A DNA stretch of 64,000 nt, from positions 1-64,000 of the forward strand of contig JAOQAG010000014.1 in NCBI GenBank assembly GCA_025963715.1. The letters are read 5' to 3'. Below the pieces are notes generated by a model. It did no database searches, was not told the DNA's origin, and saw only the letters and a list, made by a program, of their open reading frames with translations. The position numbers and the translations under genes are program-made. The first letter of the stretch is position 1, and each line of letters opens with the position of its first letter. Shown in pieces: positions 10,475-45,938 of the stretch. The stretch is from Bacteroidota bacterium. GTDB lineage: Bacteria; Bacteroidota; Bacteroidia; 2-12-FULL-35-15.

Positions 10475-12007
10475 ATGAAATTTAAAAATTTATTGACGTT
10501 GGTTTTACTACTTGTTGCAGCAACTATTTTTGCACAAGCACCGCAACGATTTAACTACCAGGCGGTGGCCCGCAACAGCAGCGGCTTTATATTGGCAAAC
10601 CAGGCAGTAGGGATGCAAATCTCCCTTCGGCAGGGAACTGCTACAGGAACCATTGTTTATACCGAAACCCACGCCGTTACCACCAATGATTTAGGTTTAA
10701 TGAACCTTTCCATTGGTGGAGGAACAGTTACTGCAGGTACTTTTTCAAGCATTGATTGGTCGGCCGGACCCTATTTTATTGAGATCTCAATGGATGTAAC
10801 CGGCGGTACTTCTTATGTAATTATGGGCACACAGGAATTATTGAGTGTGCCTTATGCATTGTATGCAGCAAACAGCGGCACATCCGGGCCTGCGGGAATG
10901 CCAGGAACAACAGGTGTTACTGGTGCTGATGGAACAAACGGCGCTACCGGAGATAACGGAAGTACAGGTGCAACAGGCGTTACAGGAAATACGGGTATCG
11001 CAGGAGATGCAGGAGCAACGGGCGCAAACGGAACAACAGGCGCTACCGGAGATAATGGGAATACAGGTGCAACAGGAGTTACAGGAAATACGGGTATCGC
11101 AGGAGATGCAGGGGCAACGGGTGCGAACGGAACAACAGGAATTACAGGAACTCCGGGGATTGCTGGTACAACCGGTGTTACAGGAAATACAGGCATTGCA
11201 GGAAACACAGGAGTAACGGGTGCAAATGGAATAACAGGAGTTACAGGAACTCCGGGCATTGCCGGCATAACAGGTATTACAGGTGTTACAGGAAATACAG
11301 GCATTGCAGGAAACACAGGAGCAACAGGTACAAATGGAATAACAGGAGTTACAGGAAATACAGGCATTGCAGGCACTACGGGAACAACAGGAGCAACGGG
11401 CATTACAGGCCCTACCGGTGTAACCGGATCTTCCTTTTTTAGCGGTACAACCGCACCAGCAGCAGGATTAGGAGTAAACGGAGATTATTATCTTTCTACC
11501 CCCAACGATTATCTTTATAAAAAAACAAGCGGCACCTGGACATTTACCGCTTTTGCAGCCGGGCCAACGCTTTATGGCGGAGCATCCGGAGATGATTCTC
11601 CTGTTGTTGGCCAGGTAGGTGATTCATTTTTGAACCTTACTGATGGAACATATTCCGTAAAGACCGGCGTAAGCACCTGGAACACGTATGGGGCCATTGC
11701 AGGAGCGATCACCAATGTAAAACAGTTAAATTCCAACTACAACCTGGATCCCCTAAAGGATGGGGTTGTTTATACAAAAACGCCGGGTAACCAGTATGTG
11801 CTTCCCCTGGCAGCAACTGCAGGCAGAGGGAAGATCTATTACATCAGGGGCGATTTCGCAAATACATTTACAGTGACGGTAAACGGCAGTTCGGATTGGA
11901 TCAACGAGGCGACTGATGGTGTGGATGTATCTACCACAACTCAGCGTACATACGCTACCTATGTAAGTGATGGTATAGATCATTGGATCGAGCTGGATTA
12001 TCGTTAG
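10475..12007 (+). CDS. Secreted collagen-like triple-helix repeat protein
   Basis: 510 residues. A signal peptide (1-20, ATIFA before QAP) leads to an N-terminal domain (21-132; [21 protein letters not shown]) that is common in front of collagen-like or phage-fibre-like regions in Bacteroidota. About 61 uninterrupted Gly-X-Y triplets follow (about 135-318), dominated by threonine, alanine and asparagine ([17 protein letters not shown]) with very few prolines, then a non-collagenous C-terminal domain (319-510) ending HWIELDYR. The Gly-X-Y DNA is internally duplicated in blocks of 36-72 bp. No T9SS domain or lipobox is seen. A surface fibre or adhesion role is inference. It stands alone and is followed by a strong terminator. 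Confidence 0.9.
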
Positions 12008-38417: not shown

Positions 38418-39080
38418 TCAGATTTTTTGATAATTACGCTCTCCAAAAATGGCGCTTCCCACTCGTACCATATTACTCCCGGCTTTTATAGCCAGTTGGT
38501 AATCGGAACTCATGCCCATGCTTAAAACGGAAAGTTGGAGGTTGGAAGCGTGCCGGTCGTAAAATTGTTTTAAGGAATTAAACTCCGCGCTGATCTGCTG
38601 CTGATCATCAGTATTAGTAGCCATTCCCATAAATCCCACAATTTTTATATTTTGTAGATCGCGGAATGCTTCGGAATGGAGGAGTGTTTCGGCTTCGGTA
38701 AAGCTTAACCCGAATTTGGTGTCTTCATTGGCAATGTAAATTTGCAGAAGACAGTTAATGATCCGGTTATTTTTTAATGCTTGTTTGTTGATCTCTTCCA
38801 ACAGTTTTAAACTGTCAACGGAATGAATGAGTGCAACAAACCGCGCAATGTATTTTATTTTGTTGGTTTGTAAATGCCCGATCAGGTGCCATTCGATGTT
38901 TTTTGGCAATTGTTCGTGTTTATCCGCCATTTCCTGCACTTTGTTTTCACCGAAAATGTGATGGCCTGCGTTATACACTTCCATGAGCTTTTCGGGCGGA
39001 TGTGTTTTGGTAACGGCAATAAGTGTTACATTTTCCGGTAAGGCTGATTTTATATGGTGGAGGTTTTCTTTGATGGACAT
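38418..39080 (-). CDS. YggS/PLPBP-family pyridoxal phosphate homeostasis protein
   Basis: 220 residues. A PLP-binding TIM-barrel protein that helps vitamin B6 and amino/keto-acid balance, with no firm enzyme activity. The PLP lysine lies in LIAVTKTHPPEK (about 21-26). GENKVQEMADKHEQ, IEWHLIGHLQTNKIKYI and LSMGMSSDYQLAIKAGSNMVRVGSAIFG are family hallmarks. The upstream region is a tandem duplication that also copies the first codons of this gene. Confidence 0.92.
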   Translation of the reverse strand: MSIKENLHHIKSALPENVTLIAVTKTHPPEKLMEVYNAGHHIFGENKVQEMADKHEQLPKNIEWHLIGHLQTNKIKYIARFVALIHSVDSLKLLEEINKQALKNNRIINCLLQIYIANEDTKFGLSFTEAETLLHSEAFRDLQNIKIVGFMGMATNTDDQQQISAEFNSLKQFYDRHASNLQLSVLSMGMSSDYQLAIKAGSNMVRVGSAIFGERNYQKI

Positions 39081-39280
39081 GGTGTGTGTCTTTGGTACGC
39101 AGATTTAAATGGAATTTTTATGCTGAAATTATGATCGCCTGCGGCGGATGATGATAAGGTTATGATTGCTTTATGGACATGCTGTGTGTTTTGGTACGCG
39201 GATTTTAAATGGAGTTTTTATGCTCAGGTTATGATCGCCTTCGGCGGATGATGATTTGTTATGATTGCTTTACGGACATG
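39075..39280. repeat. About 100-bp tandem duplication of the yggS-like gene's start region
   Basis: GGACAT is repeated at 39075, 39175 and 39274 (periods 100 and 99), and the stretches between (GTACGC, TTTTTATGCT, ATGATCGCC, GGCGGATGATGAT) match closely. On the minus strand each upstream copy has ATGTCC followed by a stop after a few codons (ATG TCC ATA AAG CAA TCA TAA), copying the real ATGTCCATC start at 39080. Confidence 0.85.
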
Positions 39281-41923: not shown

Positions 41924-42105
41924 AAATTAAGTTTTGGAAGCTTTTGTAAAATCCCTGTAAAAATAACAGAAATGTTGCCTTTAAGAAAAAAATTGATCAT
42001 AAAATATCACATTCCATCCTGTTTTTTTAATCCTTTACAGAAGTTGCTGCGATCAGGTTTTCTTCTGTTTCAAATGTTGAAACAATTTACAGCCTTTCCT
42101 AAAAA

Positions 42106-42135
42106 CAGAAACAGCCTCCGAAGAGGCTGTTTCTG
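42106..42135 (-). terminator. Strong hairpin after the PKD/T9SS gene
   Basis: A perfect 13-bp stem CAGAAACAGCCTC / GAGGCTGTTTCTG with a CGAA loop, read from the minus-strand gene ending at 42160. No long T-run is present. Confidence 0.75.
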
Positions 42136-42159
42136 CAATCCAATTACAATTTAACTTAC

Positions 42160-44064
42160 TTAATTCTTAACCATTCTTTTCGAAGCAATCACTTTACCAT
42201 CAACGATAAGGCTGTACATGTACATGCCATTGGTAAGATTGTTTCCAAAAACAGTTAATTGTCCTTTCCCTTTTGTTGTAATGTTAAATGTTTTAACAAC
42301 AGTACCATTCAGGTTCACAATGTTAACCATTGCTTTGCTGAACGATGCAGGAATATCATAATTGATCACGGTGCTTTCTGCGAATGGGTTTGGTGCATTC
42401 TGATCCAGCACGATCATGTTTGGATTTGCCTGGTCTACTACTTTCGTAGGACTTGTTCCCACATGATCTCCCAGCACTTTAGCTTTGCAATCCAATACCC
42501 TGATCTCTCTGCAGAATTTAGTAAAGCAGCATTGGTCGCCTTGTTGCGAGAACAATGTTAAGCACACATTGTAAATGCCAGGATGTGCATACTGGTGAGT
42601 GGTTGTTGAACCCAAACCTGTTGTGCCATCGCCGTAATCCCATAACCAGCCGGTAATTGGTGAACCTGCGTATGTAACATACGCATTAAATGTGTACATG
42701 CAGTTATCCGTATTGAAGGTAATGTTTTCTGTTGCTTCAAAATGACATCCCTGGTCACAGGCTCTCTCAATTTTGATTTCTTTGCAAACGGTTTTCGTAC
42801 AGCATTGTTCACCGTTAAAGATCGTTACAGTTAAACATACAGTATATGTTCCCGGTGCGTTGTAATAATGGATTCCGTATTGAGTGTTTCCACCGCTCCC
42901 GTCGCCATAAGTCCATGCATAGGATACAACCTGGTAACCCGCCGGAATTCCGGAAACGCCTGCCAGCATATTGATGCCGCAATTGACAACGCTGCCGTCA
43001 AAATCAAGCCTGAAACCGCACTCCGGTGGTTCGGGGTTGCTGCAGTTTCCAAATACCGCATGGCCCACATCGCCTGCATTTACTGTAATGGTATACGTAC
43101 CTGCGCCTCCCGGAACGGTTTGTACCCAACCGGCTTGCGCTACTTCACTTACGGTATATGTGCCCGGATGTAAGCCTGTAAAGCAATAATCTCCAACACC
43201 GTCAGTTACGGCAGTACCAATCAAATGGCCAAGATTATCATATAAATTAATGGTCCAGCCTGGTAAACCCGGATCAACAGAGGGATTAACCGTTCCATCG
43301 CAATTTACATCCTGCAGTTTTGTTCCGCAAATGCTTGCATAAGGATTACAGCAGGAAGATGTAAGCAGGTCGGCGCCTGATATTGTTCCTTCCAGCGCAA
43401 AGCCCATCGCAACAGCGCCACTATTGTAAAGCTTTACGCTTAAGCAATGTCGCCCTGCCGTTACACTAAATGATTGGTTGAATGTAAGCCTGTTGGCCCA
43501 CCAAAACTGGTAACCTGCAAAAGCAGAAGCAATAGGTACTCCGTCTAAAAGCACTTCTCCTCCGTCATCTACCAGCATATCGAAGCTGATGGTAACGGTA
43601 GTTGCTTTACAAACACAGAAACATTTTTCAAATTCCCATGCACCGGCAGTTATTGGCCAGTTGTTGGTAATGTATGCACTGTTTTGAAATGGCGATACCC
43701 ATTGTGCATTCGGGCAGCTGTTCCATACCGGATAAGGAGTAATATCATAACAAGGCGCAGGTAAATGTACCGGCGAAATCCATGGCGTATCTACCAGTGT
43801 CCAGTTACTTTCATAAGCAAGCGGTGTGTTGTACGTACCTGTTGTTTGATTGTAGCCGGTACTGATGTTGAGCACATTCCCAAGGCAGGTGGCATCGCAC
43901 TGGTCGGTTCCGTCGCCTCCGGGTTGTGCTTTTTCCTGCGCACTTAAATTCAAATTTGTAAAAAATACAGCAAAAAATGTAAATACCAAAAGCATTGTTT
44001 TTTGCTTAACAAGGTCTGTGATCGCATGCACACGCCGTAGTTGTAAGGTTAGTTTTTTTTTCAT
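42160..44064 (-). CDS. T9SS-sorted secreted protein with PKD and SdrD-B-like domains
   Basis: 634 residues. Its signal peptide is unusually long (about 43 residues with a charged n-region RRVHAITDLVKQK before the hydrophobic core). The cysteine-rich N-terminal region (about 45-240) has a motif ISFDMLVDDGGEVLLDGV as in carbohydrate-like adhesion domains. It is followed by an SdrD-B-like domain (CDGTVNPSVDPGLPGWTINLYDNLGHLIG), two PKD-like domains (AWTYGDGSGGNTQYGIHYY and WLWDYGDGTTGLGSTTTHQ) and a C-terminal T9SS type A domain (QNAPNPFAESTVI ... GKVIASKRMVKN). It is exported by T9SS, and an adhesion or binding role is likely. A hairpin array lies directly upstream. Confidence 0.9.
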   Translation of the reverse strand: MKKKLTLQLRRVHAITDLVKQKTMLLVFTFFAVFFTNLNLSAQEKAQPGGDGTDQCDATCLGNVLNISTGYNQTTGTYNTPLAYESNWTLVDTPWISPVHLPAPCYDITPYPVWNSCPNAQWVSPFQNSAYITNNWPITAGAWEFEKCFCVCKATTVTISFDMLVDDGGEVLLDGVPIASAFAGYQFWWANRLTFNQSFSVTAGRHCLSVKLYNSGAVAMGFALEGTISGADLLTSSCCNPYASICGTKLQDVNCDGTVNPSVDPGLPGWTINLYDNLGHLIGTAVTDGVGDYCFTGLHPGTYTVSEVAQAGWVQTVPGGAGTYTITVNAGDVGHAVFGNCSNPEPPECGFRLDFDGSVVNCGINMLAGVSGIPAGYQVVSYAWTYGDGSGGNTQYGIHYYNAPGTYTVCLTVTIFNGEQCCTKTVCKEIKIERACDQGCHFEATENITFNTDNCMYTFNAYVTYAGSPITGWLWDYGDGTTGLGSTTTHQYAHPGIYNVCLTLFSQQGDQCCFTKFCREIRVLDCKAKVLGDHVGTSPTKVVDQANPNMIVLDQNAPNPFAESTVINYDIPASFSKAMVNIVNLNGTVVKTFNITTKGKGQLTVFGNNLTNGMYMYSLIVDGKVIASKRMVKN

Positions 44065-44165
44065 AACATGTAGTTTTTAGTTTTGCCTACTCTCTTGAAA
44101 GCTTTTCGGCACCCGCTTTATTATTTTACTGATACTGAATAAATAAAAGATCAAAAAAATAATAC

Positions 44166-44445
44166 ATGCACGGAGAGAGCATAACATGAGCACGATCATA
44201 CACGGAGAGAGTATAATCTCAAACAAAAAAACACTAAAAGAAAAAATAAACCGGGTAAAGGAGTAGGAGGTATACCCGCGGTAATAATTGTTTAAAAAAG
44301 TAAAACAGGTAGGAGAGAAGTGAAACCTGCAGCAAAAAATTATTTTATAAATAAAATAATTTAAAGTGCTCAGAGAGAATAAACACTTGTGAAATCAACT
44401 GTTTCGGAAGAAACAGAACAGGTAAAAAGAGAGAATGAATACCTG
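44166..44445. ncRNA. Array of small hairpins with GAGAGA/GGAG loops
   Basis: Six short hairpins (read on the plus strand): ATGC..GCAT (44166-44182), GATCATAC..GTATAATC (44194-44218), CGGGTA..TACCCG (44252-44278), CAGGT..ACCTG (44306-44329), AAGTG..CACTT (44364-44388) and CAGGTA..TACCTG (44419-44445). Stem sequences differ but each loop is purine-rich with GAGAGA, GGAGAGA or GGAGTAGGAGG. From the second onwards they start 58, 54, 58 and 55 nt apart. A further perfect hairpin CTGTTTC-GGAA-GAAACAG is at 44399-44416. Direction, transcription and function are not known. Confidence 0.45.
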
Positions 44446-44552
44446 CAGCAATAATTTTATTTGGCTAACGTAGATCATTTTTTTCTTTTATGCAAATTTT
44501 CATTTTAAAAAAAAATGTCACTGGTCTGTTTTTCTATCTAACGGTCGTCTGC

Positions 44553-45938
44553 TTATTTAGAGATCACATGAAATTTCAGCTCATATCCCAGGCGCAATTC
44601 CTTGTTGGTGAAATGACTGGTATCGGTCTGTATTTCCGATGAATAAAGCATCCCGCTCCGTGGCAGCGGGTTTACAACAATGATTGTATCGTGCTTTAGT
44701 GTATTGTTGAGGCGGGTTAAGCTGGTAATACGTTCGTCATGCGCTTTTGCGTATACGCTTGCAACCGGGTATTGGTTAATAATATGAAAGATCATGATCC
44801 CGCATCCTAAAAACAATCCGCCATACTTTAAAATGTTAATTTTCTGATCGTTGAAAAATCCGGTGTAACCGCAATAAAAACAAATGCAGCTGCTGTATAC
44901 TGCCAGTAAAAAGGATACAATGAACCAGATGCGCGGCGGGCCGGTTTCCACCATCACATAGGCAACGGTATAGAAAAAAATAAGCAGTAATCCCATCAGC
45001 AGGAGCGTTGCTTTTGTAAAAAACATTTTTAATGAAACATCCGGAGCTGTTGTTTTTGATAATGATTGCCCGGCTACAATAAAAGGAATGGCGAAAATAA
45101 CAATATAGATGAGCCTGAACGGCAGATACAATGCTGTAAATTTTACAATGGATTTTGCAGTGATAAAAAACGAGTAGGCAAATTGATGTTTCGGAAATAA
45201 TTCGTCACGCAGGTAATTGCCGGGAGCGATCAGAAAAATAATAAAGGAAATTCCTAAAATGCTGTAAACAATTAGTAAACGACGATTCAAAAAGTTCGAT
45301 ATAAATGCCTTGAAATTATTTGCCTGTTTGTATCTGTAAATAATAAAGATTAAAAATAAAATCCCGTAAAGCATAGAATATACTTCAGAGGAACCGCCGA
45401 CATAAATAAAACAAAGCGAAGAAAATAAAATGGCTACAGCGTTGTTCCCCTTTGAAAATAAAAATGCAAGTCCCCAAACAAACGCGATCACGCTCCACAG
45501 GTAGGAAGTGAGGCTGCAATACCAAAACCAGGTTTCGGCAATATCGATGCTTAAAAAATACAGCAGGGCCGTGAAGGATATCGATAAAAGAATAGTTTGC
45601 AAGCGGCTGATCTTTAAATCCAGCCGTACTGCAGCGTTAGTCATTAATTTATAAATACCTGCGATCAATAACAGGAAAGAAACGAACGGGAATAAAATAT
45701 ATCCGGCCTGGTGTACATCCAATATTTTGTAGATCACATCCATTAAAAAAGTAGCGGCAAAGCGTCCGCACCATTCCATATATTGGGAAGTAACACCTGT
45801 AATAATTCCATGGTGGCGCACATCCCAGATAAAATAATAATCATCTGTCGCCAGCCGACTGTAATAACAAAGCATACCGTACAGCGCAACAAATAAAATC
45901 AAAACGAAAGAGAGTAGGAGGGTGTAGCGCTTGCTCAT
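44553..45938 (-). CDS. Polytopic membrane protein, possible GT-C-like (DUF6056-type)
   Basis: 461 residues from the ATG at 45938 (MSKRYTLLLSFVL); the longer ORF adds 17 residues before it. It has about ten to twelve membrane helices and a first extracytoplasmic loop with LATDDYYFIWDVRHHGI and the WCGRFAATFL segment. An acidic pair after helix 1 is the place where GT-C glycosyltransferases keep their catalytic Asp, and the pattern is like DUF6056, but the call is tentative. A soluble C-terminus (about 395-461) ends in beta-strand-like sequence (TNKELRLGYELKFHVIS). It probably handles lipid-linked sugars. It is divergent from the lipoprotein gene at 46007. Confidence 0.65.
   Translation of the reverse strand: MSKRYTLLLSFVLILFVALYGMLCYYSRLATDDYYFIWDVRHHGIITGVTSQYMEWCGRFAATFLMDVIYKILDVHQAGYILFPFVSFLLLIAGIYKLMTNAAVRLDLKISRLQTILLSISFTALLYFLSIDIAETWFWYCSLTSYLWSVIAFVWGLAFLFSKGNNAVAILFSSLCFIYVGGSSEVYSMLYGILFLIFIIYRYKQANNFKAFISNFLNRRLLIVYSILGISFIIFLIAPGNYLRDELFPKHQFAYSFFITAKSIVKFTALYLPFRLIYIVIFAIPFIVAGQSLSKTTAPDVSLKMFFTKATLLLMGLLLIFFYTVAYVMVETGPPRIWFIVSFLLAVYSSCICFYCGYTGFFNDQKINILKYGGLFLGCGIMIFHIINQYPVASVYAKAHDERITSLTRLNNTLKHDTIIVVNPLPRSGMLYSSEIQTDTSHFTNKELRLGYELKFHVISK

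Follow-up and report, generated by a model that had tools for sequence, protein, structure and literature searches.

Ahead of an orphan T9SS gene, the 64,000-nt stretch of DNA analyzed here (the window) carries a row of hairpins with GAGAGA-type loops, and between the hairpins and the gene lies a member of the DUF805b RNA family. The array comprises four to six related hairpins. In the reading that we tentatively prefer, and to which we give a little less than an even chance, it would be the minus-strand leader RNA of the T9SS gene, the transcript itself being presumed. The features are listed below in the order in which the minus strand would be read.

44465 to 44496, minus strand: promoter-like TTTG-N20-TACGTTAG, just ahead of u6; a weak candidate for the start of the leader
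44419 to 44445, minus strand: hairpin u6, stem CAGGTA/TACCTG; outer G-U pair added on the minus strand
44399 to 44416, minus strand: linker hairpin between u5 and u6, CTGTTTC/GAAACAG, 7 bp
44364 to 44388, minus strand: hairpin u5, 5 bp on the plus strand and 9 bp on the minus strand through two G-U pairs; loop UUCUCUC
44337 to 44362, minus strand: linker hairpin between u4 and u5, an A/T palindrome of 11 to 12 bp
44306 to 44329, minus strand: hairpin u4, stem CAGGT/ACCTG; outer G-U pair added on the minus strand
44252 to 44278, minus strand: hairpin u3, stem CGGGTA/TACCCG; CCUACUC within the minus-strand loop
44198 to 44214, minus strand: hairpin u2, stem ATAC/GTAT; loop identical to that of u1
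44166 to 44182, minus strand: hairpin u1, stem ATGC/GCAT; loop ACGGAGAGA (plus strand), UCUCUCCGU (minus strand)
44128 to 44156, minus strand: rival promoter-like TTTG-N17-TATCAGTA, between the array and DUF805b; its sole use would place the array outside the gene's transcript
44084 to 44119, minus strand: DUF805b RNA element (RF02914, clan CL00115), 44.1 bits; tail AAGAGAGUAGG
42160 to 44064, minus strand: orphan T9SS gene, encoding a 634-aa protein with SdrD_B, two PKD domains, and Por_Secre_tail (the T9SS sorting tail)

A first-pass annotation, made from the letters alone, had reported six hairpins at 44166-44445, and all six were found there. From u1 to u6, successive units start 32, 54, 54, 58, and 55 nt apart. 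The spacing reported earlier for the last five (58, 54, 58, and 55 nt) was recovered in its last three values; the first 58 is obtained only with u2 counted from 44194 and is otherwise 54. Units u1 and u2 are 4-bp cores that make marginal RNA hairpins (plus-strand folding energies of -1.2 and +0.8 kcal/mol). We shuffled the 488-nt intergenic region 2,000 times at the dinucleotide level and counted hairpins with a GA core and a stem of 5 bp or more. The array has four such hairpins, compared with a mean of 0.02 in the shuffles, none of which (0/2,000) reached four. When the GA cores were kept fixed and the remainder was shuffled, four hairpins appeared in 1/2,000. By both tests, the array thus exceeds chance in its repeated loop and in its stems. 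In a sparsely sampled fold scan of the window, 4 of 214 sampled segments folded better than the minus strand of the array region, so its foldedness is high and not unique. No second cluster of such hairpins was found within the 64 kb.

We then compared the units with one another. Over 46 to 49 aligned columns, u3, u4, and u6 are 63 to 74% identical (z = 5.8 to 7.0 versus shuffled sequences). Since this identity is far above that of shuffled sequences and includes the linkers, we regard these units as tandem duplicates that have diverged, repeating about every 55 nt. The homology of u5 to the other units is confined to the loop and is not detectable outside it (z = 0.3 to 2.6). Judged by sequence, u1 and u2 are copies of each other as well: 18 of 20 nt are identical, and both differing bases are the partners of one stem pair (G-C to A-T). 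In the alignment of u3 to u6, three of the six pairs are altered on both sides, a result seen in 4 of 500 shuffles; of these three changes, that of u3 alone lies between clear homologues, and the two in u5 hang on the loop-only alignment. The first-pass annotation had taken compensated stem changes as a sign of selection on pairing. The change between u1 and u2, together with those in u3 to u6, bears this out, and at this one locus they provide modest but real evidence for such selection. Even if the leader reading is wrong, the array would still be a clear example of hairpin repeats that stay paired while their sequence drifts.

To compare the strands, we folded the same 301 bases in both orientations. 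The minus strand gave -59.5 kcal/mol (z = -6.2) and the plus strand -51.3 kcal/mol (z = -3.8). With local pairing, the mean pair probabilities of u3, u4, u5, and u6 were 0.92, 0.99, 0.92, and 0.99 on the minus strand, compared with 0.72, 0.15, 0.04, and 0.98 on the plus strand. The better folding of the minus strand is due in part to wobble pairs. On that strand u5 is four pairs longer, including U-G at 44383/44369 and 44381/44371, and the outer G-U pairs of u4 and u6, one each, are likewise found on the minus strand only. These pairs are A-C mismatches on the plus strand; four of them favor the minus strand, and none was seen that favors the plus strand. From these four wobble pairs in one locus, the best strand evidence at hand, we infer that the array belongs to the minus strand. 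Of the two options first offered, a plus-strand RNA and, for the gene at 42160, a minus-strand leader, the latter is better supported, as all of u3 to u6 form in the minus-strand fold.

Beyond shared domains, we found no orthologue of the T9SS gene in 35 congeners, and a search of GTDB contigs returned nothing useful. The DUF6056 and 2-hydroxyacid dehydrogenase genes that flank the unit are separated by about 60 to 230 nt in the six relatives checked; here, the array, the DUF805b element, and the T9SS gene sit between them (window 41924-44552). Because the flanking genes are nearly adjacent in relatives and the T9SS gene lacks an orthologue in the congeners, we interpret all three features as a lineage-specific insertion of ~2.6 kb. 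The array probably arose with the lineage-specific surface gene. Phage and plasmid records yielded short A/T matches only. Both the insertion and the DUF805b element are new relative to the first reading.

The score of the DUF805b element exceeds the Rfam gathering cutoff of 35.6 bits, which identifies it as a member of the family. It is on the same strand as the T9SS gene, 19 nt ahead of the ATG at 44064. The genome contains ten DUF805b copies, eight of them above the cutoff; most lie 13 to 34 nt before a start codon, and many precede genes with signal-peptide-like starts. The Rfam consensus structure draws the first stem only. Among 34 copies from the genus, we detected a second, crossing helix, in which the three bases before GAAAA pair with the three after AGAGUA in 32 to 33 of the 34. 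Covariation is strong at the third pair of this helix, which is GC, UA, CG, AU, or GU in different copies, and none of 2,000 shuffles paired as well (mean, 17.7). Together, the Rfam-drawn stem and the crossing helix make an H-type pseudoknot. Using the DUF805b positions to seek a start site, we observed that A+T content climbs towards the element and that promoter-like scores are slightly above those of controls; no clean start-site motif was found at the DUF805b loci of this genome. No paper on this curated RNA family was found in the literature collection searched. An 11-mer of the tail, AAGAGAGTAGG, apparently recurs within the DUF6056 gene, at window 45908-45918 of the plus strand, as read from overlapping 7- and 8-mer matches. 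This recurrence would put the complement of the tail in the DUF6056 mRNA and is probably due to chance.

We favor the leader reading because of the strand, the position, and the promoter-like TTTG-N20-TACGTTAG upstream of u6, and the placement of the array in a leader is moderately supported. According to our model, a leader of about 390 nt would start on the minus strand from the promoter near 44496-44465. Its hairpins would fold one after another, displaying CU-rich loops (UUCUCUC, CUCUCUU, and CCUACUC), and two plain hairpins would serve as spacers among them. Downstream, immediately before the start codon, would follow the DUF805b pseudoknot, whose conserved tail is AAGAGAGUAGG here. One CU loop or another would pair in cis with this tail, and the array would thereby compete with the pseudoknot, or with its binder, and tune translation. 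All six minus-strand loops are CU-rich and complementary to the tail over 5 to 7 nt. As a duplex with the tail, the u3 loop beats about 98% of shuffled loops and the u5 loop about 97%, but those of u1, u2, u4, and u6 pair no better than shuffled loops, and we consider the loop-tail pairing doubtful. That the leader represents a new kind, in which tandem CU-loop hairpins act as a built-in multicopy antisense to the DUF805b pseudoknot for graded control of a surface protein, is a long shot. If true, this antisense-leader reading would give a first handle on the role of DUF805b, and the locus offers a testable case for what DUF805b responds to.

Several observations speak against a leader. The strand case consists of four wobble pairs in a single locus, the other nine DUF805b loci in the genome all lack such an array, and promoter-like sites such as TTTG-N20-TACGTTAG are common. 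Moreover, leaders look short at several other DUF805b loci, and the promoter-like site between the array and DUF805b would exclude the array from the mRNA. The main rival builds on that site: if the gene started there (44156-44128), the array would be upstream DNA outside the transcript, left by tandem duplication of a palindromic segment long ago, and would either decay slowly or provide repeated DNA sites for a protein. In keeping with this, TTTG-N17-TATCAGTA stands directly ahead of DUF805b, u3, u4, and u6 are clear duplicates, and the entire unit is a lineage-specific insertion. However, compensation on both arms is unexpected under neutral decay and unneeded for binding sites, the stems around the GA cores are kept beyond chance even with these cores fixed, and one strand folds better than the other. 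We consider this explanation somewhat unlikely.

Alternatively, the array may encode a separate minus-strand sRNA running from about 44458 to the U-rich stretch that follows u3 (44251-44218). Its several CU loops would pair in trans with DUF805b elements in about ten mRNAs of this genome, at their AGAGUAGG tail. On the minus strand, the GC-rich hairpin u3 is followed by GTTTATTTTTTC, the loop of u3, CCUACUC, is exactly complementary to the conserved GAGUAGG, and the ten DUF805b copies of the genome would supply targets. There is also a precedent in LhrC of Listeria, which acts through three redundant CU-rich sites and whose CU-rich loops target purine-rich sites close to the start codon in the mRNA for a surface protein (PMC4132741). 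LhrC and the array share CU-rich motifs in several hairpin loops (here all six minus-strand loops), but the LhrC sRNA acts in trans, is multicopy, and has two stem-loops, whereas here a single locus has six hairpins that probably act in cis; the likeness is an analogy of working only. Against an sRNA, u3 was not called by a terminator scan, although its loop is longer than the limit of the scan. Relatives with DUF805b but without the array exist, so the array is no general DUF805b partner. Such an sRNA is distinctly improbable.

The first-pass annotation had likened the array to CsrB/RsmZ, and a plus-strand decoy RNA with such a layout could titrate a GA-binding protein. In CsrB, GGA occurs 22 times, mostly as CsrA sites, and is found in hairpin loops (PMC7652899). 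The array is also a hairpin series with repeated loop motifs; its plus-strand loops are purine rich, with GGA in four of six and ANGGA in three. The array differs in that its loops are 9 to 15 nt rather than 6, its opposite strand folds better, and u5 and u6 lack GGA. In addition, u4 and u5 are mostly unformed in the plus-strand fold. CsrA (PF02599) was found in 0 of 36 genus genomes, including this one, by a search that detected its positive controls. A literal CsrB-type function is excluded because the partner protein is missing from the genus. The -7 box TAGTTTTG proposed as a plus-strand start is present and perfect at 44078-44085. Such boxes are common by chance, the plus strand of the 64 kb having 33 perfect ones, and this promoter would overlap the start region of the opposite gene and DUF805b. 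We regard a decoy for any GA-binding protein as very unlikely. A CRISPR array, which the palindromic repeats and steady 54- to 58-nt spacing resemble, is rejected because u3, u4, and u6 are only about 63 to 74% identical, their similarity extends into the linkers, and u5 is near chance outside the loop.

To look for relatives of the array, we built a covariance model (R1) from u3 to u6, which recovers the four units at 49 to 58 bits. A covariance-model search, as the first-pass annotation had suggested, covered 36 genus genomes and 395 class genomes. Its hits were isolated and weak, none scoring above roughly 33 bits, and those inspected appeared to be coding. No further copy of the array turned up in its own genome, in 35 congeners, or in ~380 more distant genomes (about 415 other genomes), which also counts against a leader. 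No Rfam family matched the array, and the DUF805b model gave no match over its units at E values up to 10. DUF805b has a true member just ahead of the start codon, as at other copies in this genome, but the array itself is not DUF805b. With no Rfam match and no counterpart in about 415 other class genomes searched, the array is an orphan structure. BLAST searches for homologous arrays in this genome and the genus returned mainly A/T-rich chance matches and DUF805b, and a GAGAGA triple pattern across the genus hit mostly other, unrelated tandem repeats.

A lone weak hairpin was seen in the same genome at C7:139894-139943 on the minus strand (positions 995-1044 of locus L158), with stem AACAAGGG/CCCTTGTT and loop CTCCAGGAGAGGAAA. 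It is intergenic, right after a stop codon, and scores 27.5 bits against the array model, with a similar loop. Two other repeats were noted in the window. At 39068-39280, two tandem 100-nt copies, 87% alike, precede repeat-like sequence that contains the palindrome GATCCCGGGTCAGGCCCGGGATGAC. At 10931-11410, a tandem repeat with units of 36 to 108 nt (ACAGGAGTTACAGGAAATACAGG...) possibly codes for a collagen-like Gly-X-Y stretch.
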